Position numbers and translations under genes: made by a program
Part shown: positions 2,128 to 17,268 of the stretch, one piece after another
Position numbering within the stretch: position 1 is the first letter of the stretch
Layout: every line of letters starts with the position of its first letter
Assembly: GCF_001514535.1 (NCBI RefSeq)
Contig: NZ_BCNO01000001.1
Coordinates: forward strand, 1,073,012 to 1,137,011
Reading direction: 5' to 3'
From: Thermodesulfovibrio aggregans
GTDB taxonomy: Bacteria > Nitrospirota > Thermodesulfovibrionia > Thermodesulfovibrionales > Thermodesulfovibrionaceae
DNA length: 64,000 bases
The notes under the pieces: generated by a model
Told to the model about the DNA's origin: nothing
What the model saw: only the letters and a program-made list of their open reading frames with translations
Database searches by the model: none

Positions 2128-4041
2128 TCAAATAATAAGAGACAGTGTTATTCTTGAAGTTAAAGCCAGTATTAATGCTAAAAGGATAGTTAAACCACTA
2201 ATTAAAATCATTTTTTTAAAACCAAGTTCTTTTACTAATGCTCCCATTGTTCCTACACAGGGCATGTAAAATATCGTAAATATTGTGTATACAATCAATT
2301 GAAGATTGGTCATAACTGTATTGAGCTGAGTTGTGTCCATTGCCTGAAAAAGCATTATCATAGAGAGTTCTTTCCTGAGAATACCAAAAAGAAGCGTTAT
2401 TCCTGTTTGTTCAGGCAGTCCAAGAATTTGAGTAATTACTGGATAAAAGAGTTTATTTAAAATTAAATCAAGCTTTAGATATTCTATAAAACTTAGAACA
2501 ACGCTACTTATAACAAGCAGGGGCCAGGCAACAAGAATAAAATCTTTGAGTCTCAGCCATGTTTTCATAAAAACATTTTTTACTGCCGGAATTCTCAATG
2601 GTGGAATCTCCATTATTAATCCAGGAGTAATTTCAGGGATAAATTTTGTTAATACAGCACCCAAACCCATGATTACAAAAAGATTAAAAAGATAAAGTCC
2701 TGCTGCTGCTAATCCTCCAATGTATGCTCCAACCAGTCCAAATATCACGGTTGTTCTTGCTGCACAGGGAATTAAAACAGAAAGAGTTGCTGTAATAAAG
2801 CGATCTCTTGGAGACTCTAGTATTCTCGTTGCCATAACTCCAGGAACATTACAGCCATAGGAAACAACAAATGGAAGAATACTTTTTCCATGCAATCCAA
2901 TTCTATGCATTATTGTATCCATTAAAAAAGCCATTCTTGGCAGATAACCTATATCTTCCAGAACAGTTAATCCAATAAAAAATGGTATTAAGTAAGGAAT
3001 GGCAACGCCAAGTCCTCCTGAAAAACCTTCAAGTAATCCTTTGACAATAAAGTATAATAAACTGTTTTCTTCAATAAACTGGGGCAATTTTTGAATTAAA
3101 GAATCAAAACCTTCTGTAATTGGCTCTTCAATAAATTTTCCAACTTCAAAAACTATATAAAAAATTCCAAATAAAATTAAAAATAACAAAGGATAGCCCA
3201 AGTATTTATTTGTGAGCAGATCATCGACCCTTTCTCTAAATGATTTTAAAGGCTCTACAACTTTTGCTACATCTTCAAATATATTCATTGAAAGGGCATG
3301 TCTTTCAGAGGAGATTACAGTATCAGCGTGCCTTCCATGGGTTATTTTAATTTCTTCTCTTAATTTTGTAACCTTCTCTGAAATTTCAGGAATATCTTTA
3401 ATTTCTTCAAAAATTTCCTTATCTCCCTCCAATAATTTTACAGCAATATATCTTCTTGGAATGTTTTTTAAAAAATCCTCGGGAATAATTTTTTCAATTT
3501 CTTCAATTTTTTCTTCTATGTCTTTGTGAAAAAACTGAATTTTTGGAATAAGTTTTTTATAATATGCCTGTTTTGCTGAGTTGAAGATATTATCAAGTCC
3601 TATTCCTTTATTTGCAATAGTTTCAATAACAGGCACTCCAAAGATTTGAGAAAGCTTCTCTATGTTGATTTCAATACCTTTTCTTCGGGCTTCATCTATC
3701 ATGTTTAAACAGATAACCATCGGAACCTGTAATTCTGCAAGTTGAAGTGTAAGTTCAAGACTCCTTGATAAAGCGGATGCATCAATTACATTTATAACAA
3801 CGTCTGCCTGTCCAGACAGAATGTATTTTCTTGATTCAAGCTCAGCAAGATCAATGGCAGTAAGAGAATAAATCCCTGGCAAATCAACGATTTCAAAGAT
3901 TTCATCTCCAACTTTTACTTTGCTTACTGTATAATGGACTGTTTGTCCCGGGAAGTTGGCAGTAATTGTTTTATATCCAGCAAGACCATTAAATATTGTG
4001 CTTTTACCAGCATTGGGCTGTCCTACAAAGGCGATTCTCAT
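2128..4041 (-). CDS. feoB: Ferrous iron transport protein B, short form (FeoB1)
   Basis: Inner-membrane Fe(II) transporter with an N-terminal G domain. G1 is GQPNAGKST (residues 7-15), the G3 region is DLPGIYSL, and G4 is NMIDEA near residue 113. After a helical spacer, the Gate-type membrane domains begin near residue 285 with the typical GCNVPGVMATRILE and a later second Gate repeat. At 637 residues it is shorter than the 719-residue FeoB encoded further on, mainly in the middle and C-terminal loops. Its start overlaps the stop of feoA by 4 bases, so the two are probably translationally coupled. The DtxR-like gene upstream suggests metal control. Iron is the family substrate, although short FeoB proteins in other bacteria can prefer Mn or serve other roles. 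Confidence 0.93.
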   Translation of the reverse strand: MRIAFVGQPNAGKSTIFNGLAGYKTITANFPGQTVHYTVSKVKVGDEIFEIVDLPGIYSLTAIDLAELESRKYILSGQADVVINVIDASALSRSLELTLQLAELQVPMVICLNMIDEARRKGIEINIEKLSQIFGVPVIETIANKGIGLDNIFNSAKQAYYKKLIPKIQFFHKDIEEKIEEIEKIIPEDFLKNIPRRYIAVKLLEGDKEIFEEIKDIPEISEKVTKLREEIKITHGRHADTVISSERHALSMNIFEDVAKVVEPLKSFRERVDDLLTNKYLGYPLLFLILFGIFYIVFEVGKFIEEPITEGFDSLIQKLPQFIEENSLLYFIVKGLLEGFSGGLGVAIPYLIPFFIGLTVLEDIGYLPRMAFLMDTIMHRIGLHGKSILPFVVSYGCNVPGVMATRILESPRDRFITATLSVLIPCAARTTVIFGLVGAYIGGLAAAGLYLFNLFVIMGLGAVLTKFIPEITPGLIMEIPPLRIPAVKNVFMKTWLRLKDFILVAWPLLVISSVVLSFIEYLKLDLILNKLFYPVITQILGLPEQTGITLLFGILRKELSMIMLFQAMDTTQLNTVMTNLQLIVYTIFTIFYMPCVGTMGALVKELGFKKMILISGLTILLALILALTSRITLSLII

Positions 4042-4268
4042 TCTATTTCCTCCACTTCTATCTTTGAAGCCACACCTCTACCAAGCGCTACATCAAAACC
4101 ATTTACTTCCAGAAGAACAGGACCACCTAAGAAAGAGCTTTTTTTCAAAGTTACAATGTCACCGATATGAATGCCGAGGCATTGAAGATGCTGTCGCACC
4201 CCTTTCCCGCCTGAAATTTTGAGAATTTTTACTCGTTTGCCATTATTTATATCAAGCAATGTTTTCAT
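4038..4268 (-). CDS. feoA: FeoA-type SH3-like protein (FeoA1)
   Basis: A 76-residue cytosolic SH3-like protein that partners FeoB. It has the FeoA pattern GKRVKILKISGGKGVRQHL, then LGIHIGDIVTL, and the end VALGRGVASKIEVEE. The usual RLxxMGLxxG is altered to HLQCLGIHIG, so it is the most divergent FeoA in the window. It sits between the DtxR-like gene (17 bases upstream) and feoB1 (4-base overlap). Confidence 0.9.
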   Translation of the reverse strand: MKTLLDINNGKRVKILKISGGKGVRQHLQCLGIHIGDIVTLKKSSFLGGPVLLEVNGFDVALGRGVASKIEVEEIE

Positions 4269-4285
4269 TACAAGCCTCCAGTATA

Positions 4286-4678
4286 TTATTGTTGCGATTT
4301 TTCTGTAAATTCAATAATTTTATTTATCGTTTCCTCTGAAAGGTCATGTTCCATCTTATGGACATCTCTTATAGCTGATTGTTCACTTACATTCAGAATT
4401 TCTGTTAAAAATTTATAAAGGATTTTTTTTCTGTTTTCAATTCTTTGAGCTATTTCAAGCCCTTTTTCTGTAAGTGTAATGTATTCATATTTCTGATAAT
4501 TGACGAGTCCTTTTTCTGCAAGACTTTTAACCGCTACAACCGTGCTTGAGAGTTTCACTCCTCGTTTTTTTGCAATATCTTTTATTCTTACGACAGGTGC
4601 TTTTTTTAAAATTTCAAAGATATCAAAAAGATAATCTTCAAGATTTTCAGTCAATTCTAATTTTGTTTGAGCATTCAT
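4286..4678 (-). CDS. DtxR/MntR-family metal-dependent repressor
   Basis: A 130-residue protein with an N-terminal winged helix (LEDYLFDIFEILKKAPVVRIKDIAKKRGVKLSSTVVAVKSLAEKGLVNY) and a helical metal-binding and dimerisation region containing HKMEHDLSEETINKIIEF. It lacks the C-terminal SH3 domain of DtxR/IdeR, so it resembles MntR or short iron repressors. It is the first gene of dtxR-feoA-feoB, so Fe(II)-dependent control of iron uptake is the natural inference, and Mn(II) is possible. There is no Shine-Dalgarno. An extended -10 box lies 5 bases before the ATG, which points to a leaderless mRNA. Confidence 0.88.
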   Translation of the reverse strand: MNAQTKLELTENLEDYLFDIFEILKKAPVVRIKDIAKKRGVKLSSTVVAVKSLAEKGLVNYQKYEYITLTEKGLEIAQRIENRKKILYKFLTEILNVSEQSAIRDVHKMEHDLSEETINKIIEFTEKSQQ

Positions 4679-4777: not shown

Positions 4778-5524
4778 GTGATTTTTGGTGTAGAATTAAT
4801 AGAAGAACTTGAAAAACTTGACCCTCATATAAGGTCTGCCTTTCTTAAAATTCTCAAGATTATCGAAAAGACAATCGGTGAGGTTGTAAAGCGAGAGGAC
4901 TTCCTTGAACTTAAAAAGGAAGTTGAGCTACTCACAAAAAGTGTTAAAGAGCTTGCAGAAGCACAGAAACGAACTGAACAGGTAGTAGGAGAGCTTGCAG
5001 AGGCACAGAGGCAGACCCAGAAAGAAGTCTCTCGCTTAGATAAAGCTCTACAAGAGCTTGCAGAAGCGCAGAAGCGTACTGAAGAGGCCTTAAAAAAGCT
5101 TACAGAAGATCACAAAAAAACGAGAGAGCATCTTGGAGGGCTTTCACACACAGTGGGCTATATTCTTGAAAATGAAGCATATAAACATCTGCCGAAACTT
5201 CTTATGGAAGACTTTGGAGTAAAAATTGCAGGAAGACTACTGAGAGACTTCATAGAAATCTATGATGGCAGATTTGAAGAGATAAATATTTTTGGCAAAG
5301 GGATAAAGAATGGTAAAAAAGTAGTAATACTGGGTGAAGCAAAAACCCAGCTTAAGAAGTCAGATATTGATAGTTTTCTCAAAAAAGTTGTAAAGCTCGA
5401 TAAAATTTATCCAGAAGAAAAACTTCTGATACTCGTAACCCATCAGGTTGCAAATCCTTATGTATTCAAATATGCACAGCAGAAAGGTATAACTAAGATT
5501 TACCTGAGCTACCAGTTTGTTTGA
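4778..5524 (+). CDS. Coiled-coil protein with putative PD-(D/E)XK nuclease-like C-terminal domain
   Basis: A 248-residue protein of unknown function, of the kind grouped in DUF3782-like families. Residues about 25-125 form a charged coiled coil with near-repeats of ELAEAQKRTE at 14- and 21-residue steps, which are multiples of seven. The C-terminal part contains LSHTVGYILENEAYKHLP, then EEINIFGKGIKNGKKVVILGEAKTQL. The spaced acidic residue followed by GEAK resembles a PD-(D/E)XK active site. That is inference from the motif, and nuclease activity is not shown. It starts at GTG without a Shine-Dalgarno, divergent from dtxR, and its 3' end overlaps the Cys-rich peptide gene by 32 bases. Confidence 0.7.
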   Translation: MIFGVELIEELEKLDPHIRSAFLKILKIIEKTIGEVVKREDFLELKKEVELLTKSVKELAEAQKRTEQVVGELAEAQRQTQKEVSRLDKALQELAEAQKRTEEALKKLTEDHKKTREHLGGLSHTVGYILENEAYKHLPKLLMEDFGVKIAGRLLRDFIEIYDGRFEEINIFGKGIKNGKKVVILGEAKTQLKKSDIDSFLKKVVKLDKIYPEEKLLILVTHQVANPYVFKYAQQKGITKIYLSYQFV

Positions 5525-5669
5525 TTTTTATTTCTGAATTTTTATTTCGTTGCATATTACAACAACCACCGCAGCCAGAACATTGCCCTTTTTTCCAGAT
5601 GGAGCGGTATAAGATGTATACCGCTCCTGTAAGGATTCCTGAAGCAACTAAAATATCTATAAAACTCAT
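5493..5669 (-). CDS. FeoB-associated Cys-rich membrane peptide (FeoC-like position)
   Basis: A 58-residue protein with one N-terminal membrane helix (IDILVASGILTGAVYILY), a basic WKK, then the cysteine cluster QCSGCGGCCN. This is the build of the FeoB-associated Cys-rich membrane proteins often found directly after feoB. The cluster could bind iron or an Fe-S centre, which is unproven. The ATG at 5669 has an AGGAG about 6 bases upstream. It lies 10 bases after the feoB2 stop as the last gene of the large Feo operon, and its tail overlaps the convergent gene ending at 5524. Confidence 0.8.
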   Translation of the reverse strand: MSFIDILVASGILTGAVYILYRSIWKKGQCSGCGGCCNMQRNKNSEIKIKQTGSSGKS

Positions 5670-5679
5670 TTTTTTCTCC

Positions 5680-7839
5680 TTAAAATCCTAAAATTTTCCC
5701 AACCTGATAAACCATAAAGCTCATAAGCCATGGTAGTAATGTGTAAATTATCAATATTTGTCCCAAAAATTTCCATGAACCAAACTCCTGTTTTATAACA
5801 CTGACAAATACCGCGCAGGGCCAGTAGAGTAGAACAAAAACAAGAAATGCGTAAGCACTAAGCGGTGTAAATACATCCTGAAGCTTGGTTTTAATGGAAG
5901 ACTGTTCTTCTTCTTCACCAACGGACAGTGTTTTTATGCCAATGCCTGATATTAAATTTTTAAAGGCATCACCGGTAGCTGAAAGAAAGGAAACAAAAAT
6001 ATCCTGTAAATCTTCAAAAAATCCTGTTTCTTCTTTTTTCTCTGCATTCTCATCTTTTTTTTCAGGAGCATAAATTACTGCCATTGTGCTTACAACAACC
6101 TCTTTTGCAACAACTCCGGTAATAAGTGATGCTGAGGCTTGCCAGGTGCCATATCCAAGAGGTTCAAATACAGGACTTATTGCCTTACCAACTTTACCAA
6201 GAACAGAGTTTTCTTTTTCCACTCCATAAGGTATGTTTAACATAAACCACATAATGACAGACACAGCCAATATGTAGGTTCCTGCTTTTACAACGAAGTG
6301 TTTTAATTTTTGCCATGTATGTATCATTAAGTCTCTAAAGAGAGGCATCCTGTATGGAGGTAACTCCATTATAAAAACAGGAGTAAAGCCTTTATATAAA
6401 GTTTTACTCAGGATAAAACCAATTAACACAGCCATTAAAATTCCAAGAACATAAAGAGACCAGATAACCATCGGTGCATTATGAGCAAAAAAAGCACCTG
6501 CGAACAAAACATAAACAGATAGTCTTGCTCCGCATGACATTAGAGGACAAAGCGTAGCGGTGAGTTTTCTGTCTCTTTCTGTTTCAAGAACACGGGTTGC
6601 ATAAATAGAAGGAACATTGCAACCAAAACCTAAAATCATCGGTATGAAGGATTTTCCGTGAAGCCCGATCGAATGCATCAACCTGTCCATTACAAAGGCA
6701 ACCCTTGCCATGTATCCAGTTCCCTCAAAAAAGGTCAGCATAAACATCACTGTCCCAATAAGAGGGATAAAAACAACAATAGCTCCAACTCCTGCAATAA
6801 TTCCTTCTGTAACAAGAGAGACAATCCACTCAGGGCTACCAGCTAAGTTAAGCAAAAATTTTGCCCACTTGGTCACAGGACCTCCTATTACAGAGTCAAT
6901 CCAGTCAGAGAAGGGAGATGAGAAGTCAAAGGCAATTTTAAAAACTAACCACATAGCTAAGAGAAACAGTGGTATACCCAGGTATCTGTTTAAAACTATT
7001 TTATCTATTTTCTCTGTAAGGTCTATTTTTTCACTGTCTTTTTTTATGAGAACCTCTCTTGTAATACCATGAGCTATCCCATATCTCGCATCAGCCATTA
7101 TAGATTCAATATCTTCACCAACTGTCAGAAAATGTTCTTTTGCTTTTTTCAGGAAATCCTCATCCTCCTTAATACCGGTCTCTTTTAAAACTCTTTCGTC
7201 TCCTTCAAGAAGTTTCATTGAAAGCCATCTTAAAGGATATTTATCTACTAATTCTTTATTGGACCTTATTGCCTCCTCAATTATTTTCATTGAATTTTCT
7301 ATATCTTCTCCATAATTAAGTTTAACGGGAGTGAATTTTTCTGGATGCTCAGCAACCTCCTTTAAAGCATCAAGTAATTCCTTCACTCCATCTTTTTTTA
7401 TGGCAACAGTTGGAACTACCTTTACGCCCAGTAATTGCTCCATCTTGTCTGTGTCTATTATATAGCCTTTTTTCTTCGCTTCATCATAAATATTGAGAGC
7501 AACAATTACAGGAATCCCGAGTTCGAGAAGCTGAACAGTAAGATAGAGATTTCGCTCAAGATTTGTGGAGTCAACAACATCAATTATAAGATCAGGTTTT
7601 TCTTTCACAAGAAAATCCCTTGCAATCACCTCTTCCAAAGTGTAAGGGCTTAGACTGTATGTCCCTGGAAGGTCAACCAGATTAATGGTTAAATCATCAA
7701 TTTTTAATGTGGCAGTCTTTTTTTCAACAGTTACACCGGGCCAGTTTCCAACATAAAGATTTGTACCGGCAATGGTATTTATTAGAGTTGATTTACCTGA
7801 GTTTGGATTTCCTGCCACAGCTACTGTAACTGTCTTCAT
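5680..7839 (-). CDS. feoB: Ferrous iron transport protein B, full-length (FeoB2)
   Basis: A 719-residue Fe(II) transporter. The G domain has GNPNSGKST (residues 10-18), DLPGTYSLSPYT and NIYDEA. Membrane domains follow, with GFGCNVPSIYATRVLE, CPLMSCGARLSVY and GVVAKEVVVSTMAV, typical of proteobacterial-type FeoB. A long charged loop precedes the last helices. It sits directly behind two small feoA genes (no gap to the nearer one) and is followed by a Cys-rich peptide. It is clearly distinct from FeoB1, so the cell has two ferrous uptake systems, presumably used under different conditions. Confidence 0.96.
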   Translation of the reverse strand: MKTVTVAVAGNPNSGKSTLINTIAGTNLYVGNWPGVTVEKKTATLKIDDLTINLVDLPGTYSLSPYTLEEVIARDFLVKEKPDLIIDVVDSTNLERNLYLTVQLLELGIPVIVALNIYDEAKKKGYIIDTDKMEQLLGVKVVPTVAIKKDGVKELLDALKEVAEHPEKFTPVKLNYGEDIENSMKIIEEAIRSNKELVDKYPLRWLSMKLLEGDERVLKETGIKEDEDFLKKAKEHFLTVGEDIESIMADARYGIAHGITREVLIKKDSEKIDLTEKIDKIVLNRYLGIPLFLLAMWLVFKIAFDFSSPFSDWIDSVIGGPVTKWAKFLLNLAGSPEWIVSLVTEGIIAGVGAIVVFIPLIGTVMFMLTFFEGTGYMARVAFVMDRLMHSIGLHGKSFIPMILGFGCNVPSIYATRVLETERDRKLTATLCPLMSCGARLSVYVLFAGAFFAHNAPMVIWSLYVLGILMAVLIGFILSKTLYKGFTPVFIMELPPYRMPLFRDLMIHTWQKLKHFVVKAGTYILAVSVIMWFMLNIPYGVEKENSVLGKVGKAISPVFEPLGYGTWQASASLITGVVAKEVVVSTMAVIYAPEKKDENAEKKEETGFFEDLQDIFVSFLSATGDAFKNLISGIGIKTLSVGEEEEQSSIKTKLQDVFTPLSAYAFLVFVLLYWPCAVFVSVIKQEFGSWKFLGQILIIYTLLPWLMSFMVYQVGKILGF

Positions 7840-8064
7840 TTAAATCACCTCCACTTCTATTTTTTCAGCCTCATTTTTTCTTAATGAGAGATGATAGTTT
7901 TTTACAACAATATCAACAGGATCTCCCAATGGAGCAATTTTCTCAACAATAACAATCTCTCCATCAAGAACACCCATATCCATAAGTCTCTTTTTTAGAG
8001 CTCCAGTTGTTTTAATTGATAAAACTTTTGCCTTCTGTCCTACTTTAAGCTCACTCAGTTTCAT
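7840..8064 (-). CDS. feoA: FeoA protein (FeoA2)
   Basis: A 74-residue SH3-like FeoA with the typical order MKLSELKVGQKAKVLSI, RLMDMGVLDGEIV, GDPVDIVVKNYHLSLRKNEAEKIEV. It is the best match to classical FeoA in the window and lies immediately before feoB2. A good AAGGAGG precedes the ATG. The start overlaps the stop of the preceding feoA by 4 bases. Confidence 0.95.
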   Translation of the reverse strand: MKLSELKVGQKAKVLSIKTTGALKKRLMDMGVLDGEIVIVEKIAPLGDPVDIVVKNYHLSLRKNEAEKIEVEVI

Positions 8065-8291
8065 GATATCCTCCTTACAAAAATTTTCATTGCCATACCT
8101 CTGCCAATGGCAATTCTTGAGTCATCAATCTTTAAAAGAATTGGTCCATTTCCGTTATTACTCAATACCTCCACCACTTTAGTAGGTAACAGCCCCATAT
8201 CTCTTATACGCTCCTTAAAGCCTCTCCCTTTTATGAAGAAATCAACAATTTCAACTTTTTCTCCGCTTTGAATCAATGCTATTGGTATCAT
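8061..8291 (-). CDS. feoA: FeoA-like protein (FeoA3)
   Basis: A 76-residue second FeoA in the same operon: GEKVEIVDFFIKGRGFKERIRDMGLLPT, then GPILLKIDDSRIAIGRGMAMKIFVRR. The ATG at 8291 has AAGGAG with good spacing even though it lies inside the 3' end of the HD-GYP gene (41-base overlap). Paired FeoA proteins are known in several anaerobes. A division of labour between the two copies is a guess. Confidence 0.92.
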   Translation of the reverse strand: MIPIALIQSGEKVEIVDFFIKGRGFKERIRDMGLLPTKVVEVLSNNGNGPILLKIDDSRIAIGRGMAMKIFVRRIS

Positions 8292-8955
8292 TCAAATCTC
8301 TCCTTTTTGTAAAAATTTCCCAAATTTTATCCATTACAGTTATGGTCGCATTTACTACCTTAGGGTCAAATTGGATTCCCGAGTTATTTTTAAGCTCTTC
8401 AAATGTTTCTTCAAAATCAAATGCTTTTCTATAAGGCCTATCGTGTAACATTGCAGAGATAACATCTGCTACTGTGATAATTCTTGAACCAAGGGGAATT
8501 TCTTCTGCTTTAATTCCTGAAGGATAACCCTTGCCATCGTATCTCTCATGATGATAAAGAACCATGTCTTTTATGTCAGTTAGCAAAGTAACGGGTTTTA
8601 AAATTGCAAATCCTACCAACGGATGTGTTTTGATAATCTTCCATTCATGCTTTGTTAACTTTCCTTTTTTATTTAGAATTTTATCAGGAATTGCAATCTT
8701 TCCTATGTCATGTAAATGTCCTGCAATGTGAATCTTTTCAGCTTCCTTTTCATTTAATCCATAAGAAAGAGCAATCGCATAACTTATTTCCGCAACTTCT
8801 TCAGAATGATTAGCAGTATAAACATCTTTTGCATCTATGACTCTTGATAGAGATTCAGCAAACTGATGAATTGTTATAAACTCATTTTTAATTTGATCTA
8901 AAGTACCTGTATAAAACTCATCTGATGGAATTTTCTTATACATTCTCATTTGCAT
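8251..8955 (-). CDS. HD-GYP domain protein, likely cyclic di-GMP phosphodiesterase
   Basis: A 234-residue cytosolic protein consisting almost only of an HD-GYP domain. Seen: AGHLHDIGKIAIPD with the HD pair at residues 82-83, THPLVGFAIL, HHERYDGKGYP at 135-145, and the DVISAMLHDRPYR region. All metal-binding and GYP signature residues are present, so hydrolysis of c-di-GMP is likely. The first 40 residues have no recognised sensor. It overlaps the FeoA-GGDEF gene upstream by 20 bases and a feoA downstream by 41 bases, so it is co-translated with iron transport genes. Confidence 0.9.
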   Translation of the reverse strand: MQMRMYKKIPSDEFYTGTLDQIKNEFITIHQFAESLSRVIDAKDVYTANHSEEVAEISYAIALSYGLNEKEAEKIHIAGHLHDIGKIAIPDKILNKKGKLTKHEWKIIKTHPLVGFAILKPVTLLTDIKDMVLYHHERYDGKGYPSGIKAEEIPLGSRIITVADVISAMLHDRPYRKAFDFEETFEELKNNSGIQFDPKVVNATITVMDKIWEIFTKRRDLNDTNSIDSKRRKS

Positions 8956-9715
8956 ACCTCCAGTAGAAAGTGCATACCATGTTTTTACCTCTCTTTTTAG
9001 CCATATATAGGGCTTTGTCAGCTCTATTTAAAAGTTCATCCATAGATATATAAGGTGGGGTTCCGTCAATTCCTGCACTTATCGTTACGATTCCTGTACC
9101 AAATGGTGAAATTTCAATAGATTTTGCCAGTTCCCTGAGTCTCTCTGCTATTAAATAGCATTGTTTTAAATTAACCCCTTTCATCAATATCAGAAATTCT
9201 TCACCACCCCACCTGAAAACATTGTCTGTCCTTCTTATGTTTTTCTTTAACATCTCCCCAACCTTTCTTAAAACCCTGTCTCCAAAATCGTGACCATAGG
9301 TATCATTGATTTTTTTGAAGTTATCAATATCTATTAGAATCAGTGAAAAGGGTAATTTGTTTGACACAGCTTTCTCATATTCTCCTGCTAAAAATAAATA
9401 AGCAGTGTTTCTGTTAAGACAACCTGTAAGGGAATCATACATTGCACTTTCTTTATAAAGATGATAGAAAGATTTTATCGGTCTTACTCTTATGAAATTT
9501 GCAAGTTCTGACTCAAAACCAAGATAAGCATTATTAACTTTTAATAAGACTTTTTTATTTATCACAGGATCATAGGAAATTAACTCTACAAGGATTCCTT
9601 CTTTTAATCCCATATCTCTTAATCTTTTAACTGCTGGAACATTGATGTCCATATATACAATCTCAGCCAATTCACCTATATATAAATCGCCCAGGAAGAG
9701 TCCATCTGGTTTCAT
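8936..9715 (-). CDS. Diguanylate cyclase with N-terminal FeoA domain (FeoA-GGDEF fusion)
   Basis: A 259-residue two-domain protein. Residues about 5-76 read as a FeoA SH3-like domain: GELAEIVYMDINVPAVKRLR, the signature RLRDMGLKEG at 31-40, then VLLKVNNAYLGFESELANFIRV. Residues about 88-255 are a complete GGDEF domain: DSLTG at 94-98, IDIDNFKKINDTYGHDFGD, the catalytic GGEEF at 170-174, and a product-inhibition site RRTD at 161-164 five residues upstream. It should make c-di-GMP from GTP. The FeoA domain could dock to FeoB or sense its state, which is inference. It lies directly upstream of the HD-GYP gene and the feoA-feoA-feoB cluster. Confidence 0.9.
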   Translation of the reverse strand: MKPDGLFLGDLYIGELAEIVYMDINVPAVKRLRDMGLKEGILVELISYDPVINKKVLLKVNNAYLGFESELANFIRVRPIKSFYHLYKESAMYDSLTGCLNRNTAYLFLAGEYEKAVSNKLPFSLILIDIDNFKKINDTYGHDFGDRVLRKVGEMLKKNIRRTDNVFRWGGEEFLILMKGVNLKQCYLIAERLRELAKSIEISPFGTGIVTISAGIDGTPPYISMDELLNRADKALYMAKKRGKNMVCTFYWRYANENV

Positions 9716-9730
9716 TATTTCCCCCCAATT

Positions 9731-10909
9731 TTAAAAGTTAATATTCCATCTTACACCATAAACATGGCCTGCCTTTGTGTTGTCTGATTCTCTTGCAGTA
9801 TCACGAATATACTGATAATCAAGGGTTATGTCTGAACTGAGAAATTTGTAAGAAAAAAGCTTAAACTTCACATAAGACTCAAATACCTGACTGTGTTTTA
9901 ATTTTTCATTTTCATCCTGTAATTTTTCATTCTTTGATGGGCTCTTTAGATAGGCATAACCAAAGCCTATTTCATCATCCTTACGACCCCACACACTTCC
10001 ATTTAGATTCAATCCAAGTGAAAACATTCTGTTATAATCTACCTTTGCAGAGTCATCCTGCCAGCCTGCACGGAAAAATGCTCCAAGTATGTCTTTTATC
10101 AACTGCTGGTCAAAGGATACTCCAACTCCTTTCAATGCTTTGTATGCATCGGTATCCCAGTTTTCAAATCTCTTATTCGTTGTGTATCCATAGAGCCTGT
10201 AATTACCCTCACCAATTGGTGTTTCAAGCTTGTATCCAATCTGTGCTCCAATCCAGTTGTAGTTTTTCACATCCATTATTTCATTATCATTTTTTGAACG
10301 CATTCCTACCAGTCTCAGATGAAAATTACCAGCTTCAAACTCTGCTGCCACCCCTGCATCATAGCTTGGAAGATTTGCAAGAGGATTATGCACCAGTGCT
10401 TCATTCATGAATTGTCCAAGTTCATCTGCTGCATAGGCATTGTCATCTATAAAGGCTGTTGAGTCAATTATTCCTGCTGTAAACTTTAGCGATACATCCT
10501 TCTGAATTGGAAACTTATGGGAGTACCAAAGCTCCTGTAGATGATCTCTTGGATGTCCATTTATGTTTTTTAGGTCGACAAAGAGGTCATCAGCATTGGG
10601 ATTGAGATTGAAAGGATAAAGAGAGCTTTCTGAGTGAAATCCGCTTCCTTTTGCAAAGCTTGCTCTGAGGAAGAATTCATCGTTTTCAGTTGGTTTAAGA
10701 GATACATTGAAGTCAATTACAGCTGAGCCTCTGTCCTTTGTTTTGTCCTTTGTTTCATCATCCACATATCCTTTGGTCATGTGTAGCCACTGATAAACTG
10801 TGGTTGCAGTTCCTGAAACTGAAAGCCAGTCTGTAATATCAGCCGCAAATACTGAAAATGAAAAAAGTAAACTTAAGAAAGCTACAATGGAAACTTTTAA
10901 ATTTTTCAT
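9731..10909 (-). CDS. Outer-membrane beta-barrel (porin-like) protein of the Feo operon
   Basis: A 392-residue protein with a Sec signal peptide (KVSIVAFLSLLFSFSVFAA, cut near residue 22). Alternating amphipathic strands run through its length, and it ends in GVRWNINF with the C-terminal Phe typical of outer-membrane barrels. The stretch NPLANLPSYDAGVAAEF recalls alginate/carbohydrate porin families, but I cannot assign a substrate. Its place between a DUF2325 gene and the FeoA-GGDEF gene suggests passage of ferrous ions or small iron complexes across the outer membrane. The start overlaps the stop of the upstream gene by 4 bases. Confidence 0.8.
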   Translation of the reverse strand: MKNLKVSIVAFLSLLFSFSVFAADITDWLSVSGTATTVYQWLHMTKGYVDDETKDKTKDRGSAVIDFNVSLKPTENDEFFLRASFAKGSGFHSESSLYPFNLNPNADDLFVDLKNINGHPRDHLQELWYSHKFPIQKDVSLKFTAGIIDSTAFIDDNAYAADELGQFMNEALVHNPLANLPSYDAGVAAEFEAGNFHLRLVGMRSKNDNEIMDVKNYNWIGAQIGYKLETPIGEGNYRLYGYTTNKRFENWDTDAYKALKGVGVSFDQQLIKDILGAFFRAGWQDDSAKVDYNRMFSLGLNLNGSVWGRKDDEIGFGYAYLKSPSKNEKLQDENEKLKHSQVFESYVKFKLFSYKFLSSDITLDYQYIRDTARESDNTKAGHVYGVRWNINF

Positions 10910-11214
10910 TTTAAATCCTCCTCTTTTTCTTTTATTTTTTTTAAGTATTCAATGCTTTTTCTTAAAGAGCTTATTCCGCAGCTATGGCACATTAAACAGG
11001 GGCATTTTTTAAAAGAAAAATTTTTTCTTATGCTTTCTTTTAATTCGTGCGAAACCTTGTTTGTAAAAATCACCACCGCATCAACATTTCCTATTTTCTT
11101 GTGAACATCTTTTTCCGGTTTTGTAAAAACTTTCAACTTTACTCCAAGTTTGTTTGCTTCTTCAATATAATGTTTTTCTAATCTATCCATTCCTCCAATT
11201 AACGCCACACACAT
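10906..11214 (-). CDS. DUF2325 family protein
   Basis: A 102-residue protein. It begins CVALIGGMDRLEKHYIEEA, followed by VDAVVIFTNKVSHEL and KCPCLMCHSCGISSLRKSIEYLKK. The Rossmann-like GGMDR start and the later conserved Ser/His fit DUF2325. The extra cysteines (CPCLMCHSC) could bind a metal. Function is unknown. It is the first gene of the large Feo operon, with a strong AAAGGAGG and a consensus promoter upstream, so a role in iron handling is plausible but only by context. Confidence 0.75.
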   Translation of the reverse strand: MCVALIGGMDRLEKHYIEEANKLGVKLKVFTKPEKDVHKKIGNVDAVVIFTNKVSHELKESIRKNFSFKKCPCLMCHSCGISSLRKSIEYLKKIKEKEEDLK

Positions 11215-11245
11215 ATTCTTCCTCCTTTAAATAATTGAAATATAT

Positions 11246-11287
11246 TTAGATAAATCTAATTATAAGAATTAATTCTAATTTTGTCAA
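11246..11287 (-). promoter_or_regulatory. Consensus sigma-70 promoter with palindromic operators for the large Feo operon
   Basis: On the minus strand TTGACA (11287-11282), a 17-base spacer and TATAAT (11264-11259) form a perfect consensus promoter. The spacer contains the palindrome AGAATTAATTCT (11265-11276). TTAGATTTATCTAA (11259-11246), an inverted repeat with 6-base arms, begins on the -10 box. A repressor bound to either would block RNA polymerase. The DtxR-like protein encoded at 4286-4678 is the obvious candidate. Confidence 0.75.
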
Positions 11288-11308
11288 GTCTGTCTAAAAA
11301 TTAAACTC

Positions 11309-11337
11309 TTGACTTTTTTTTTAATCTGTTTTTTAAT
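11309..11337 (+). promoter_or_regulatory. Promoter of the Hmc operon
   Basis: TTGACT (11309-11314), a 17-base spacer and TTTAAT (11332-11337). The first ATG (11352) is 14 bases after the -10 box, so the leader would be very short, and no Shine-Dalgarno is seen. The promoter is back-to-back with the Feo promoter. Confidence 0.6.
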
Positions 11338-11351
11338 AGATAACAATTAAC

Positions 11352-12605
11352 ATGTTCAACTGGGATTGGCAGACAAAGGAAAAGGTTATTTGTGATGTTA
11401 ATGAATGGAAGGAGAGATTCAGCCTTGTCCATGAGTTTATTCCGAGTGCTGATGGAGAGAGAATCGCAGCTGTTGTTGAAATAGAAGATAAAAAGGTTAC
11501 TCCATGTATAAATGGAAAAACATGGAGTGATACCTTTGAAAGAATTTGCTTTTTAAATTTTCTTCCTGACAGTTCCATAGTATGCCTTGTTTTACAAAAT
11601 TTTGAATGGACAATGGCAAAAGATGAAGTTTTACTTGATGAATCCTTTGACTATGCATGGAACCTTCAGTTTAGCGAAGATGCTTCTACAGTAGCATTTA
11701 ACATAAAAAAAGGAGACTCTTACGGACTTTGTGTAAATGGAAAAGTGTGGGATAATCTATTTTTTGATGCAAGGGATTTATTTATTTCTCCCGATGGGAA
11801 AAGAACTGCCTGCTATGTAAGGACAAAAAATCCTCAGGTTCTTGATATATTTAGTTTCAAAGAAGGTGTCTGGACAGTAGCAGTTGATGGTATTGCATGG
11901 GATAAAAACTTCATCTCTGTTTATGGGTTAAACTTCAGTCCTTATGGTAAGAGAGTTGCAGCTACTGTAAGGCTTTCTCAACAGGAGTTTACAGTAGCTG
12001 TTGATGGAAATCTCTGGAATGAAACTTTCTATAACGCTTGGGAGCCTGTTTTTGTAAATGAAGGTGATATATGTGTGCCAGTTAAAACAGAAAAAGGATG
12101 GACTCTTGCTTTGAATGGAAAGCCTCTGTGGAATAGACATTTTGTTCAACTATGGCACCAGAGAGTAAGCCCGGATGGTAAAAAAATTGCCGCTGTTTGC
12201 GCAACAGAGTTTGGCAAATGGACAGTTGCTGTTGATGGAATGCCATGGAAAAGAACATTTTCTCAGGCTGTTCTACCACCACAATTCAGCCCTGATGGTA
12301 AAAGAGTAGCCTCTGTTGTAAGGGAAAACAATCTATGGACAGTTGCTGTTGATGCAGTTGCATGGAATGTTGGATTTGAAAGAGTATGGACTCCACAATT
12401 CAGCCCTGATGGTTCTCATGTTGTTGCGATAGCAGAGAGAGATGGTGTTTTCTTTATAGTGCTTGATGGAAAGATTGGAAAGGATACCTTTGATATGCTT
12501 TGGGAACCTGTTTTCAGCCCAGATGGAGATAAAATTCTGATAAGATGCATTAAAAATGGCAGATATTACAGAAAAATTTTAACAATTGGAGAGATTTTGA
12601 GATAA
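11352..12605 (+). CDS. Tryptophan-rich WD40-like propeller protein (TmcD-like) of the Hmc operon
   Basis: A 417-residue protein without signal peptide or membrane segment. It is built from about eight to nine repeats of roughly 45 residues with the pattern FSPDGKRVAAxVxxxxxWTVAVDGxxWxxxF, as in WD40-like/PD40 beta-propellers. The tryptophan content is striking. A cytosolic tryptophan-rich protein, TmcD, accompanies the Tmc redox complex of Desulfovibrio, and this protein looks like its counterpart. It ends one base inside the next gene (cytochrome b), so it is translationally coupled. It may dock a cytosolic electron carrier, which is inference. Confidence 0.75.
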   Translation: MFNWDWQTKEKVICDVNEWKERFSLVHEFIPSADGERIAAVVEIEDKKVTPCINGKTWSDTFERICFLNFLPDSSIVCLVLQNFEWTMAKDEVLLDESFDYAWNLQFSEDASTVAFNIKKGDSYGLCVNGKVWDNLFFDARDLFISPDGKRTACYVRTKNPQVLDIFSFKEGVWTVAVDGIAWDKNFISVYGLNFSPYGKRVAATVRLSQQEFTVAVDGNLWNETFYNAWEPVFVNEGDICVPVKTEKGWTLALNGKPLWNRHFVQLWHQRVSPDGKKIAAVCATEFGKWTVAVDGMPWKRTFSQAVLPPQFSPDGKRVASVVRENNLWTVAVDAVAWNVGFERVWTPQFSPDGSHVVAIAERDGVFFIVLDGKIGKDTFDMLWEPVFSPDGDKILIRCIKNGRYYRKILTIGEILR

Positions 12606-13282
12606 TGGAGCAGTTTTTTAAAGATCCATCAATATACACTCTTGTGAGAGGACCTCTTGTCTGGATTGCTTTTATTGTGTTCATTGGAGGAACATTTTAT
12701 CGTATCTATAAGACCATACAACTTGCTAAAAAGGAAAAGATAATATATCCCTATCTCAGCCTGAAATATACTCTTCGTTCATTCATACACTGGCTAACAC
12801 CCTATGGAAGTATAAGCATGAGAAGACATCCATGGTTTACACTGATTACCTTTGTTTTTCATATATCTGTGATTTTAACTCCCATATTTCTTGCTGGTCA
12901 TATTGAGCTTTGGTACGAATCTTGGAAACTCAACTGGTGGAGTTTGCCTCAGGGACTTGCTGATGCAATGACTTTGATTGTAATAGTTTCTTTGATTTTG
13001 CTTTTGATAAGGAGACTTATTCAGTCTGATATAAAGTTTTTAACCGGAAAAGGTGATTACTTAGCAATTGCTTTGGTAGCTTTACCTTTTATTACAGGAT
13101 TTCTTGCCCATTACGAGCTTTTAATTGAGTATAAAACGATGCTTACAATTCACATGATTACTGGTGAGATTATGCTTGCTACGATACCTTTTACAAGACT
13201 CAGCCATATGTTTTTCTTCTGGCTTACAAGAGCTCACACAGGAAGTGAGTTTGGTGCTGTAAGACATTCAAGAGATTATTGA
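12605..13282 (+). CDS. hmcE: Membrane cytochrome b subunit, HmcE/TmcC-like
   Basis: A 225-residue NarI/DsrM-type membrane protein. About five hydrophobic segments are seen, near residues 15-33, 80-102, 118-137, 147-166 and 178-200. Histidines in or beside helices (HPWF, FHIS, HYEL, HMITGE) are candidate haem b ligands. The length matches HmcE of Desulfovibrio (about 225) and is much shorter than DsrM. It would pass electrons between the quinone pool or periplasmic haems and the FeS subunit encoded next. Confidence 0.8.
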   Translation: MEQFFKDPSIYTLVRGPLVWIAFIVFIGGTFYRIYKTIQLAKKEKIIYPYLSLKYTLRSFIHWLTPYGSISMRRHPWFTLITFVFHISVILTPIFLAGHIELWYESWKLNWWSLPQGLADAMTLIVIVSLILLLIRRLIQSDIKFLTGKGDYLAIALVALPFITGFLAHYELLIEYKTMLTIHMITGEIMLATIPFTRLSHMFFFWLTRAHTGSEFGAVRHSRDY

Positions 13283-13289
13283 GGTAACT

Positions 13290-14603
13290 ATGGAAAAGTT
13301 TGAAAGAAAACCAGTTACAGACATCGGAATTGATGAAACACTCAATAAAGTTGATGAGTCAACCATAAAAAAAGCTATTGATTGGGTTCTAAGAAAAGAA
13401 GCATCAGCAAGACTTAAAACATTTGTAGAGACCTGCATGAGATGCGGAATGTGTACTACTTCCTGTCATCACTATTTAGGACACGAAGGTGATCCAACCT
13501 ATGCTCCAGCAGCAAAGGTAAAGCAAACAATATGGGACATGCTCAATAAAAATGGAAATGTTAGCAAAGATGACATAAAGAAGTATGCCCGTATTGCATT
13601 TTCTGAATGCAATCTCTGCCGTAGATGTGTTCAGTTCTGCCCCTTTGGAATAGATATTGCCTACTTAATAGCACTTGTAAGAAGAATCTGCTGTCTAATT
13701 GGAGCAGTGCCTCAGTATATTCAGGATCAGGCATTAAGTCATATGCAGACAACAAATATGCTATGGTTCAGACAGGATGAATGGCTTGATACAGTTCAAT
13801 GGCTTGAAGATGAATTAAGAGCAGAAATTAAAAATGCAAGAATTCCTCTTGGTAAAAAGAATGCTGAAATCCTTTATCTTGCCCATGGACTTGAAGCAAA
13901 ATACATGACAGGACTGCTTACCAACATGGCAAAAATAATGAATGTGGCAAAGGTTGACTGGACAATGCCTGATACAGATGGCTGGGATTATACAAACAAA
14001 GCATTCTATGCACAGGATCAGGAGACTCTTCAAAAAGTGGTGAGAACCCATTATGAAATTGCCTTTAAGCTTAATGTTAAGAGAATTGTTATGGGAGAAT
14101 GCGGACATGCTTACAGAACAGGCATATATGAAGGTACAAGACTCATTGGTTGGAAGGAAAATCCAATACCCTATCTTCATGGTGTGGAGTTCTTCTATGA
14201 ACTTTTAAAAAGTGGAAGAATAAAAATCAGGGAAAAGATCAAAGAGCCTGTAACTTTGCAGGATCCCTGTAATATCATAAGATACAGAGGACTTGGAGAA
14301 AAGTTAAGATACATTGTAAACAGTCTCTGCGAAAACTTTATAGAGATGACGCCAAACGATGATCATAACTACTGTTGCTCAGCTGGTGGAGGGATGATAG
14401 ATGCAGGACCACCCTGGAAGATGGCAAGAATTGAAGGTGGTAAAGTTAAGGCAGAACAGATAAGAGATACAGGGGCGAAAATAGTGATAGCACCATGTCA
14501 TACCTGTCACAAGGGAATTGAGGACTTGAATGATTATTACAAGCTTGGAGTTCATGTAAAGTTTTTAACAGATATGATTGCAGAGCAAATGGAAATTCCT
14601 TGA
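13290..14603 (+). CDS. hmcF: CCG-domain iron-sulfur protein, HmcF/TmcB-like (HdrD family)
   Basis: A 437-residue cytosolic protein. Two [4Fe-4S] motifs lie near the N-terminus (CMRCGMCTTSC and CNLCRRCVQFCPFG). CCG-type cysteine-rich regions follow: GECGHAYR, DPCNIIRYRG and YCCSAGGGM, with a later CHTCHKG. This is the HdrD/DsrK/TmcB/HmcF build, in which the CCG cysteines hold a catalytic or relay FeS centre. It likely exchanges electrons with a cytosolic thiol/disulfide or DsrC-like partner. It starts 7 bases after the cytochrome b gene. Confidence 0.85.
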   Translation: MEKFERKPVTDIGIDETLNKVDESTIKKAIDWVLRKEASARLKTFVETCMRCGMCTTSCHHYLGHEGDPTYAPAAKVKQTIWDMLNKNGNVSKDDIKKYARIAFSECNLCRRCVQFCPFGIDIAYLIALVRRICCLIGAVPQYIQDQALSHMQTTNMLWFRQDEWLDTVQWLEDELRAEIKNARIPLGKKNAEILYLAHGLEAKYMTGLLTNMAKIMNVAKVDWTMPDTDGWDYTNKAFYAQDQETLQKVVRTHYEIAFKLNVKRIVMGECGHAYRTGIYEGTRLIGWKENPIPYLHGVEFFYELLKSGRIKIREKIKEPVTLQDPCNIIRYRGLGEKLRYIVNSLCENFIEMTPNDDHNYCCSAGGGMIDAGPPWKMARIEGGKVKAEQIRDTGAKIVIAPCHTCHKGIEDLNDYYKLGVHVKFLTDMIAEQMEIP

Positions 14604-14615
14604 GAGCTTGAGAGC

Positions 14616-16190
14616 ATGAAGAGATTATTTTTCATAGTATTTTTGATTATTACATTTTTTACAGTTACAATTTACTCAAAAAATCAGATACCAACGCAAG
14701 AGCCTGAAAACATGGTTGAGATAGCCCATAAAGAGATTTTCAAAAGGCTTGAATATGGTAAAGTTCTATTTGAACATCAGAAACACATTGATACAATGGC
14801 AAAACATCTAAATAAACCAAAAGAGATGACCTGTGGAGAATGTCATTTAAGGGATAAATATGGCGATTATTCCTTTGATTTTCAGGGTAGTGGAAATATA
14901 AAATCCTCAGAGGAACTTAAAAATCTATATCACATGAGATGCTTAAATTGTCACCAAACACTGAGTTCTCAGAATAAAAAAACAGGACCTGGAATTTTAT
15001 CTTGCCGTGACTGTCATAAAAAAGAGAGTGAAAAAGTTGAAGTAAAGTATCCTCTGTTTGAGTTTGATTTTTCACTTCATGAAAAACATGTAAAAAAACA
15101 TGAAAAAGACTGTAGTCTCTGTCATCATATCTATGATATTGAAGAAAAAGATAAAAGCTTAGCTCTTGTGTATGAGAAGGGAACTGAGCAGAGTTGTTAT
15201 TACTGTCATGATTTTACTAAAAAAAGAGGTCCTGAAATTTCAAAGATAGTAAAAGTAGCAAAGGAAAAGAATCTTGACATAAAAAATGCAAATCATTTAC
15301 TTTGCTTGAACTGTCATCTAAAGAACAGACTGCAGGCAAAGGATGCAGGTCCATTGGAATGTAAAAAGTGTCACACAGGAAAGTATAAAACCATAGAGGA
15401 ACTTAAAGATGTACCAAGACCTGAAAGGGATCAGCCTGATAAGGTATTCCTCAACATTGAAGAGGGAAAAATGAAAGGGGTTGCTTTCAAACATAGCTTC
15501 CATGAGAAAAATAATAGAAACTGCAGAGTCTGCCACCATGAGACATTAAGGGCCTGTCGAGATTGCCATAATCTCAAAGGTAAGGAAGAGGGTGGATTTG
15601 TAAATGCTCTTACAGCATTTCATTCATTAAATTCAGAGACAAGCTGTCAGGGATGTCACAAAAACTTCACCAGAAAAGAAGAATGCTATGGTTGTCATTA
15701 CTTTATACCGCCAGTAAAAGCGGAAGTTGGTAAAGGACAAACATGCAGTCGCTGTCATACAGGCAAAAAAGAACCAGAAGTAGTAAAAACTTTTGCATTA
15801 TCATCGGATAAAATAAAAAATGAAGTGACTATAAAGCACATTGAAAAGGAGTTTGAGCCTGTAAAAATACCTCATTACAAGATGATTAAAAAGCTCACTG
15901 ATATCTCAAACCAGAGTAAGATAGCAACATACTTTCATAAGGATATAGATACTATTTGCAGAGGCTGTCATCACAAAAGCAAGGAGGACGCAGAATCTCA
16001 AAGAGAGAGACCTCCTCTTTGTGTAAACTGTCATAGTGTAACTTTTGATGAAAAAGCAATTGCAAGACCAAGACTTCAAGCAGCATATCACAGTATGTGC
16101 ATAAAATGTCACGAAACCATTAAACTTGAAAAACCGAAAAAATGCGAAGACTGTCACAAAAGAAAGGTAGCGGAAAATGTATATAATTGA
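14616..16190 (+). CDS. hmcA: Sixteen-haem periplasmic cytochrome c, HmcA-like
   Basis: A 524-residue secreted protein with a signal peptide (RLFFIVFLIITFFTVTIYS). I count exactly 16 CxxCH haem sites, from CGECH near residue 73 to CEDCH near the C-terminus. Many separate histidines are available as distal ligands. Sixteen haems in a protein of this length is the hallmark of HmcA, the high-molecular-weight cytochrome of sulfate reducers, which takes electrons from periplasmic hydrogenases through cytochrome c3. The flanking genes encode every other Hmc subunit type, supporting the call over NrfA/OmcX-type multihaems. Confidence 0.88.
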   Translation: MKRLFFIVFLIITFFTVTIYSKNQIPTQEPENMVEIAHKEIFKRLEYGKVLFEHQKHIDTMAKHLNKPKEMTCGECHLRDKYGDYSFDFQGSGNIKSSEELKNLYHMRCLNCHQTLSSQNKKTGPGILSCRDCHKKESEKVEVKYPLFEFDFSLHEKHVKKHEKDCSLCHHIYDIEEKDKSLALVYEKGTEQSCYYCHDFTKKRGPEISKIVKVAKEKNLDIKNANHLLCLNCHLKNRLQAKDAGPLECKKCHTGKYKTIEELKDVPRPERDQPDKVFLNIEEGKMKGVAFKHSFHEKNNRNCRVCHHETLRACRDCHNLKGKEEGGFVNALTAFHSLNSETSCQGCHKNFTRKEECYGCHYFIPPVKAEVGKGQTCSRCHTGKKEPEVVKTFALSSDKIKNEVTIKHIEKEFEPVKIPHYKMIKKLTDISNQSKIATYFHKDIDTICRGCHHKSKEDAESQRERPPLCVNCHSVTFDEKAIARPRLQAAYHSMCIKCHETIKLEKPKKCEDCHKRKVAENVYN

Positions 16191-16293
16191 GCAACTTTTT
16201 TCAGGACACGGATATGAGTATTTAATTGCTGTGCTTTCAATATTTGTTTTTATAGTAATCTTCAGTATGCTCGGAGAAAAGAAAAAGTATTAG
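16177..16293 (+). CDS. hmcD: Small single-helix membrane subunit, HmcD-like
   Basis: A 38-residue protein (MYIIEQLFSGHGYEYLIAV, then SIFVFIVIFSML and a basic end EKKKY). One membrane helix spans residues about 15-33, followed by a positively charged cytoplasmic tail. It starts inside the hmcA stop (14-base overlap) and ends 9 bases before hmcB. The D. vulgaris Hmc operon also contains a very small membrane protein gene, hmcD, at the equivalent place. Sequence similarity cannot be judged at this length, so the name rests on size and position. Confidence 0.75.
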   Translation: MYIIEQLFSGHGYEYLIAVLSIFVFIVIFSMLGEKKKY

Positions 16294-16302
16294 AGGAAAG
16301 AT

Positions 16303-17268
16303 ATGGATAGAAGAGATTTTCTTAAGACAGCACTTAAAATTACAGGATTAACACTCATAGGAAAAAATGCTATAGCTAAGGATTCTTCTGTTTACTCAAC
16401 AGGAAATCTGGCAAACAGGAAAAACTGGGAAAAATATGAGAGCATAAAAAAAGAAGAAATCTCTCCAAAAGAGCCTTATGCTGTACTTGTTGATCTTACA
16501 AAATGCATTGGATGTAGAAGATGTGAATGGGCATGCAATGAATGGAATAAAAATCCAAATAGACCACTTAAAGAGTTTGAGGAATCCAAAGACAGAAAAC
16601 CTTCGGTTTTTGATAGAATTCGTAGAACCCATGCTGGACAGTTTACAGTGGTAAATAGATTTTATGATGGACAAAAACCAGTTTATGTAAAGAAACAATG
16701 CATGCACTGTGCTGAACCTGCCTGTGAAGCTTCCTGTTTTGTTGCTGCCTTTAAGAAAACTCCGCATGGAGCAGTTCTTTACAGTCCCTCTTTGTGTGTG
16801 GGCTGTCGTTACTGTATGATTGCCTGTCCTTTTGACATACCAGCCTATGAATACTATGACCCAATTACACCACAGATAACAAAATGCACAATGTGTTTTG
16901 ATAGAATAACAGAAGGAAAGGTTCCTGCCTGTGTTGAGATATGTTCAGCCGATGTTATGAAATTTGGACCAAGAAGTGAGATGCTAAAACTTGCCCATGA
17001 AACAATAAATAATAATCCTGAAAGATACATAAAGCATGTTTATGGTGAACATGAAGCAGGTGGAACGAACTGGCTTTATATATCTGGAGTTCCCTTTGAA
17101 AAACTTGGATTTCCAAAACTTGATAAAACACCTATTCCAGAATACAGTAAAAACTTTCTTTTTACTGTAAAAGTGCTTGAGATTGTTGCTGCTGCACCCC
17201 TTGTGTGGGGAGCTTATTACATGATTTCAAGAAATAAAAAGAAAAAAGATGAAAGCCATGAGAAATAA
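16303..17268 (+). CDS. hmcB: Periplasmic ferredoxin-like Fe-S subunit, HmcB-like (TAT signal)
   Basis: A 321-residue protein. RRDFLK at residues 3-8 followed by a hydrophobic stretch is a twin-arginine signal. Four [4Fe-4S] cysteine sets of the NrfC/DsrO/HmcB type follow: CIGCRRCEWAC (C68, C71, C74, C78), CMHCAEPACEASC, CVGCRYCMIAC, and CTMCFDR with CVEIC. A C-terminal membrane anchor (VLEIVAAAPLVWGAYYM) and a basic tail are present. It should relay electrons from HmcA to the NrfD-like membrane subunit encoded next. Its 3' end overlaps hmcC by 20 bases. Confidence 0.87.
   Translation: MDRRDFLKTALKITGLTLIGKNAIAKDSSVYSTGNLANRKNWEKYESIKKEEISPKEPYAVLVDLTKCIGCRRCEWACNEWNKNPNRPLKEFEESKDRKPSVFDRIRRTHAGQFTVVNRFYDGQKPVYVKKQCMHCAEPACEASCFVAAFKKTPHGAVLYSPSLCVGCRYCMIACPFDIPAYEYYDPITPQITKCTMCFDRITEGKVPACVEICSADVMKFGPRSEMLKLAHETINNNPERYIKHVYGEHEAGGTNWLYISGVPFEKLGFPKLDKTPIPEYSKNFLFTVKVLEIVAAAPLVWGAYYMISRNKKKKDESHEK

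Follow-up and report, generated by a model that had tools for sequence, protein, structure and literature searches.

The window, the stretch of 64,000 nucleotides of Thermodesulfovibrio aggregans DNA analysed here, carries on its minus strand a seven-gene feo operon in the order DUF2325, porin, FeoA-GGDEF, HD-GYP, feoA1, feoA2 and feoB, whose neighbouring genes overlap, abut or lie at most 15 nt apart. The third gene (8936..9715), recognised from its open reading frame, Pfam matches and orthologues, encodes a FeoA-GGDEF fusion protein of 259 aa with an ATG start. Next come an HD-GYP c-di-GMP phosphodiesterase of 234 aa (8251..8955; HD_5 135 bits, and motifs), feoA1 (8061..8291; 76 aa, PF04023 60.3 bits), feoA2 (7840..8064; 74 aa, PF04023 78.6 bits) and feoB (5680..7839; 719 aa, TIGR00437 658 bits against a cut-off of 315.65). 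The HD-GYP gene shares 20 nt with the fusion and 41 nt with feoA1, and its motifs are intact (HDIGK, residues 82-86; HHERYDGKGYP, residues 135-145). The run of HD-GYP, feoA, feoA and feoB after the fusion, as the preliminary description had it, is borne out, with all genes on the same strand and overlapping or directly abutting.

Upstream of the fusion by 15 nt is an OprB-like porin gene (9731..10909; PF04966 61 bits, and congener neighbourhoods), preceded by the operon's first gene, which encodes a DUF2325 protein (10906..11214; PF10087 88 bits). The porin adjoins feoA or the fusion in congeners. In most congeners read, the pair (9731-11214, minus strand) comes first in the feo operon, which suggests that Fe(II) has a route of entry through the outer membrane. 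Directly downstream of the operon lies a second ferrous transport set (2128-4678, minus strand) of a DtxR-like gene, feoA3 and a shorter feoB (637 aa), so that two FeoB proteins and four FeoA-type domains are encoded within 8 kb.

A sigma-70-type promoter matching the consensus at 12/12 positions (TTGACA-17-TATAAT; 11259..11287, minus strand) is located upstream of the DUF2325 gene and is the sole 12/12 site in 5400-11400. The palindrome TTAGATTTATCTAA (11246..11259, minus strand), DtxR-box-like by resemblance only, starts at the last base of the -10 hexamer and overlaps the hexamer end and the start region. Its pattern, TTAGRTTNAYCTAA, has one match in the 2.0 Mb genome, at the operon promoter; the backward control of that pattern also matched once, and being rare is thus no proof in itself. 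The DUF2325 genes of two congeners, G010 and G008, are preceded at the corresponding place by similar palindromes, TTAGATTAATCTAA and TTAGATTAACCTAA; other congeners have the left half only. A DtxR/MntR-family regulator of 130 aa that lacks the C-terminal SH3 domain (4286..4678, minus strand; PF01325, PF02742) is encoded downstream of feoB and is a candidate regulator of the operon. Homologues occur at the feo locus in 6 of the 7 sister loci read, with none in the stretch read from congener G013. The palindromes and the presence of a DtxR/MntR gene at these loci together make it likely that the operon is under iron or manganese control. A riboswitch search of the first 30 kb returned two tRNAs only.

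The FeoA-GGDEF protein

The FeoA domain of the fusion occupies residues 8-79 (9479..9694, minus strand) by Pfam, AlphaFold2 and Foldseek, and matches PF04023 with 30.6 bits against a curated cut-off of 23 bits. The match is not due to chance, since the FeoA parts of both orthologues score higher (48.0 and 40.4 bits). The preliminary description had placed the domain at residues 5-76; the assignment stands, and the boundaries shift to those given by Pfam. The remainder is a GGDEF diguanylate cyclase domain (residues 91-245; 8981..9445, minus strand; PF00990 151 bits, and Foldseek) with GGEEF at residues 170-174 (9194..9208), an I-site RRTD five residues N-terminal to it (residues 161-164; 9224..9235), DIDNFKKIND (DxDxFKxxND) and DSLTG all intact. 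GGEEF, RRTD and DxDxFKxxND are invariant in the alignment of all three orthologues, in keeping with the intact active site and I-site first described for this protein. The two domains are joined by a linker of about 11 residues, and both a membrane segment and a long coiled coil are absent. A soluble, catalytically competent enzyme is most likely encoded, its diguanylate cyclase activity being predicted from these motifs. A chance or artefactual fusion was ruled out, the same open fusion standing at the same site in three separate assemblies.

Residues 1-83 were modelled by AlphaFold2 from an alignment of the three fusion sequences, with free FeoA excluded, and gave a pLDDT of 90.7 with the elements in FeoA order. 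The top Foldseek matches of this model were the FeoA structures 2k5f (E 4e-5) and 7r7b (TM 0.87 by target length), and the best matches as a group comprised free FeoA proteins together with the FeoA portion of Bacteroides fragilis FeoAB. VIA-align gave a Z of about 12 for FeoA, tied with the SH3-like domain of the DtxR-family repressors MntR, ScaR and IdeR (12-13). When the domain was compared with the PDB by sequence, FeoA was nearest, if weakly, and DtxR was not found. The fold of the N terminus had been set beforehand as the refuting test for the reading of this protein, and AlphaFold2 and the two structure aligners agree on FeoA; the predicted domain has the SH3-like FeoA fold with its helical clamp. 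In the full-length model confidence is low at linker residues 82-90. The GGDEF part matches SiaD, PleD and WspR in Foldseek, the top hit being the structure of SiaD bound to its activator protein SiaC.

Distribution and history in the genus

Our genus sample comprised 16 genomes, the window genome (G000) included. Full-length orthologues of the fusion are present in 2 of the 15 other congeners, G010 (64% identity) and G005 (61%), where they sit directly between the porin gene and feoA1, the same site as in the window. All three fusions thus lie directly upstream of feoA-feoA-feoB, and the linkage of homologues to feo genes, on which the original proposal depended, is upheld. Five congeners have a feo operon free of the fusion: G002, G008, G012 and G013 read porin-feoA-feoA-feoB with nothing inserted, and G004 reads feoA-feoA-feoB up to a contig end upstream. 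The remaining congener genomes have at most two FeoA matches each and lack the fusion. As most congeners manage without it, the fusion is accessory.

Profiles built from the real fusions and from made-up FeoA+GGDEF chimeras found no further copy or similar protein in 176 genomes of the order, and none in 396 genomes of the phylum, Nitrospirota, where six candidates were scored per genome and a weak fusion could be missed. In the phylum search the score of the fusion profile drops from 516 bits to 146. Two matches, in genomes G259 and G021, that reach into the FeoA region were rejected by eye, being longer proteins in which HAMP- and GAF-like stretches precede GGDEF and a FeoA motif is missing. 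A pattern scan of genome contigs, with patterns that reach close relatives only, recovered just the G005 orthologue, and a plasmid search for the fusion gave no match. The preliminary description knew of no FeoA-GGDEF system, and the open-licence literature agrees: its papers only co-mention FeoA with GGDEF, diguanylate cyclase or c-di-GMP, and we could not find there an earlier description of a cyclase with a FeoA input domain.

The operon tree divides the three carriers between two well-supported groups, each of which also holds non-carriers, and a single clade of carriers is rejected. In that tree G010 joins with G013 and then with G000, the window genome. The GGDEF tree joins G010 with G005 (99/94), and an AU test mildly rejects a grouping of G000 with G010 (p 0.03). 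These trees fit transfer between members of the genus into the same site, and they also fit an old gene that was lost repeatedly and evolved at uneven rates. Identity between orthologues is nearly equal in the two parts (57-63% for FeoA, 62-71% for GGDEF), so both appear to be constrained. The FeoA domain of the fusion is 31% identical to feoA1 and 26% to feoA2, values too close to call on whether it may have come from duplication of the adjacent feoA1, and it shares 23-31% identity on average with the free FeoAs of the genus.

The HD-GYP gene stands inside the feo operon in the window only and is absent from that position in the orthologous operons. In G010, an HD-GYP 52-56% identical to that of the window is encoded downstream of feoB. 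The two form a clade (95/94) on long branches, apart from the other HD-GYPs of the genus that were sampled. The G010 gene belongs to a palindrome-headed row that adjoins feo (L035:554-2401), made up of DUF2325, a dinitrogenase-cofactor-like protein (PF02579), HD-GYP and a dtxR-like gene; a c-di-GMP phosphodiesterase gene is there found beside a gene for a metal-dependent regulator. The G005 stretch read has no HD-GYP near feo. Cyclase and phosphodiesterase are therefore paired at feo in two of the three carriers, and the five non-carrier loci read show no such pair; with so few genomes, this is suggestive only. The earlier claim that synthesis and breakdown of c-di-GMP are both tied to the transporter is sustained for the window and more loosely for G010, where the HD-GYP gene lies by the dtxR-like gene; it does not extend to G005. 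The genome also has two PilZ and three MshEN matches, and these proteins are possible readers of c-di-GMP.

Proposed docking on FeoB and its alternatives

In B. fragilis FeoAB, FeoA contacts NFeoB in the GTP-analogue state; a hydrophobic clamp of Phe23, Ile27, Met30, Ile59 and Leu61 has been proposed for FeoA, and a PxxP motif of FeoB as its contact (PMC8980893). By alignment the clamp maps to A28, L32, M35, L65 and F67 of the fusion. The last four positions are hydrophobic in all three carriers, and the Phe23 position is A, L or Q. FeoBs of the genus, from carriers and non-carriers, keep the second proline of PxxP and have lost the first. A co-variation test found no excess, over comparable splits, of FeoB, FeoA1 or FeoA2 residues that track the fusion. 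With four hydrophobic clamp positions kept and a GTP-dependent FeoA-NFeoB contact already published (PMC8980893), FeoB is a plausible partner for the FeoA domain of the fusion, although the absent co-variation, the varied Phe23 position and the lost proline weigh against it.

We propose a model where the fusion is an iron-regulated cyclase that is produced together with the ferrous transporter, uses its FeoA domain as a docking input and makes c-di-GMP according to the state of the transporter; we give this reading a probability of roughly 45%. The single promoter, its -10/start region overlapped by a DtxR-type box, would probably co-induce cyclase, phosphodiesterase, FeoA1, FeoA2 and FeoB at low iron (or manganese). 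The cyclase, as sequence and model show, carries a FeoA SH3-like domain, the linker of some 11 residues and a complete GGDEF domain. Its FeoA domain would bind a protein partner as free FeoA does, the likeliest being the G domain of FeoB in the cytosol (or FeoA1 or FeoA2 on FeoB), and docking would bring two GGDEF domains together or hold them apart, so that c-di-GMP output follows transporter state. In the window genome the neighbouring HD-GYP may reset the signal, and PilZ or MshEN proteins may read it. A sharper form, in which the FeoA domain docks on the GTP-bound G domain of FeoB and switches the cyclase, and the transporter reports its cycle through c-di-GMP with the phosphodiesterase of the same operon, is doubtful. 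The placement of the fusion inside an iron-uptake operon suggests a lifestyle switch that may be tied to ferrous iron supply, and it is tempting to speculate that the output falls on attachment or motility.

It is also conceivable, if unlikely, that the FeoA domain is its own sensor, and that Fe(II) or Mn(II) bound to it would switch the cyclase with no part played by FeoB. In DtxR-family repressors the SH3-like domain contributes to an ancillary metal site, and the model matches the SH3-like domains of MntR, ScaR and IdeR no less well than FeoA; the FeoA domain of the fusion also has 11-13 acidic residues, several of them invariant. However, no Cys or His is found in the FeoA domain of any of the three carriers, and this favours protein contact over metal binding. 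The metal site of DtxR proteins is shared between the SH3-like and another domain; the fusion has no winged-helix or dimerisation domain by Pfam, so the arrangement of a DtxR-type SH3 domain is not found here, and the searches of the PDB by sequence point, weakly, to FeoA and not to DtxR. Direct metal sensing is accordingly the less likely input, with carboxylate sites as its possible means.

The short linker has none of the coiled coil that usually precedes GGDEF domains, so that these domains must owe their dimerisation to contact between FeoA domains or to a partner. This leaves room for an FeoA domain whose sole role is to dimerise or stabilise the cyclase. Iron-controlled expression would then follow from the operon position, with no contact to Feo proteins; the patchy presence in the genus and a gene tree that differs from the operon tree are as expected for a loosely attached cargo gene. 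We nevertheless regard such a passive role as improbable, given that the insertion site and the feo linkage are the same in all three genomes and that most clamp positions are retained. Least probable is that the fusion acts as a c-di-GMP- or GTP-responsive FeoA that competes with FeoA1 and FeoA2 for FeoB and tunes iron uptake through nucleotide or c-di-GMP held at the active site or I-site of its GGDEF domain: the intact I-site and nucleotide site, the FeoA-like domain with its largely kept clamp and the gene's position upstream of feoA-feoA-feoB in all three carriers would suit it, but the protein retains its full set of catalytic residues, for which a pure receptor would have no use, and co-variation with FeoB is lacking.

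Related systems and neighbouring genes

Among the known systems closest to the fusion is FeoA (PF04023), including the FeoA part of B. fragilis FeoAB (7r7b), with which it shares fold, length, the RLRDMG helix and four of the five hydrophobic clamp positions. As in FeoAB, FeoA is fused rather than free and is linked to feoB, but its fusion partner is a diguanylate cyclase instead of FeoB, and in contrast to the usual FeoA the domain is without the LGDP loop and the SLRK strand end. Like the short cytosolic cyclases SiaD and DgcZ, it combines a full GGDEF domain and I-site with one small N-terminal regulatory domain. That input is a helical domain in SiaD and a zinc-binding CZB domain in DgcZ, whereas here it is FeoA-like. 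The C-terminal SH3-like domain of DtxR, MntR and ScaR has the same fold, with tied Z-scores, yet these proteins are DNA-binding repressors, farther in sequence, whose metal site needs a partner domain absent from the fusion. A c-di-GMP enzyme joined to an iron-related domain is also seen in Vibrio cholerae Bhr-DGC and Ferrovum Bhr-HD-GYP (PMC9388753). There the domain is a hemerythrin, which has a bound diiron centre and is a sensor of oxygen or redox state, whereas FeoA has no known cofactor. Unlike the fusion, the Bhr genes have not been described as belonging to an operon for iron transport.

There is still debate over the function of FeoA, and where iron supply has been linked to c-di-GMP, the link described is usually one of gene regulation. 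On both matters a FeoA-carrying cyclase in a feo operon offers a direct biochemical handle, in that FeoA-FeoB contact could be read as c-di-GMP made. If our model is true, the fusion would be, to our knowledge, the first known c-di-GMP enzyme connected to a metal transporter by way of an accessory domain of that transporter; in the sharper form of the model, it would provide a second-messenger read-out of ferrous iron flux.

Several congeners have a very short, Cys-rich, membrane-anchored reading frame (LYRSIWKKKG..C..C) between feoB and the dtxR-like gene (L036 near 2500-2710, L038 near 6080-6210, L041 near 8270-8430), which resembles FeoB-associated Cys-rich proteins. On the plus strand of the window, an operon at 12605-18436 encodes a multihaem cytochrome and electron transfer proteins similar to TmcC, TmcB and HmcB, a gene content that points to a sulfate reducer. 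Upstream of it, at 11352-12605 on the same strand, lies the gene for a 417-aa protein of repeated 'FSPDGKRVA..W.VAVDG..W' units, apparently a beta-propeller.
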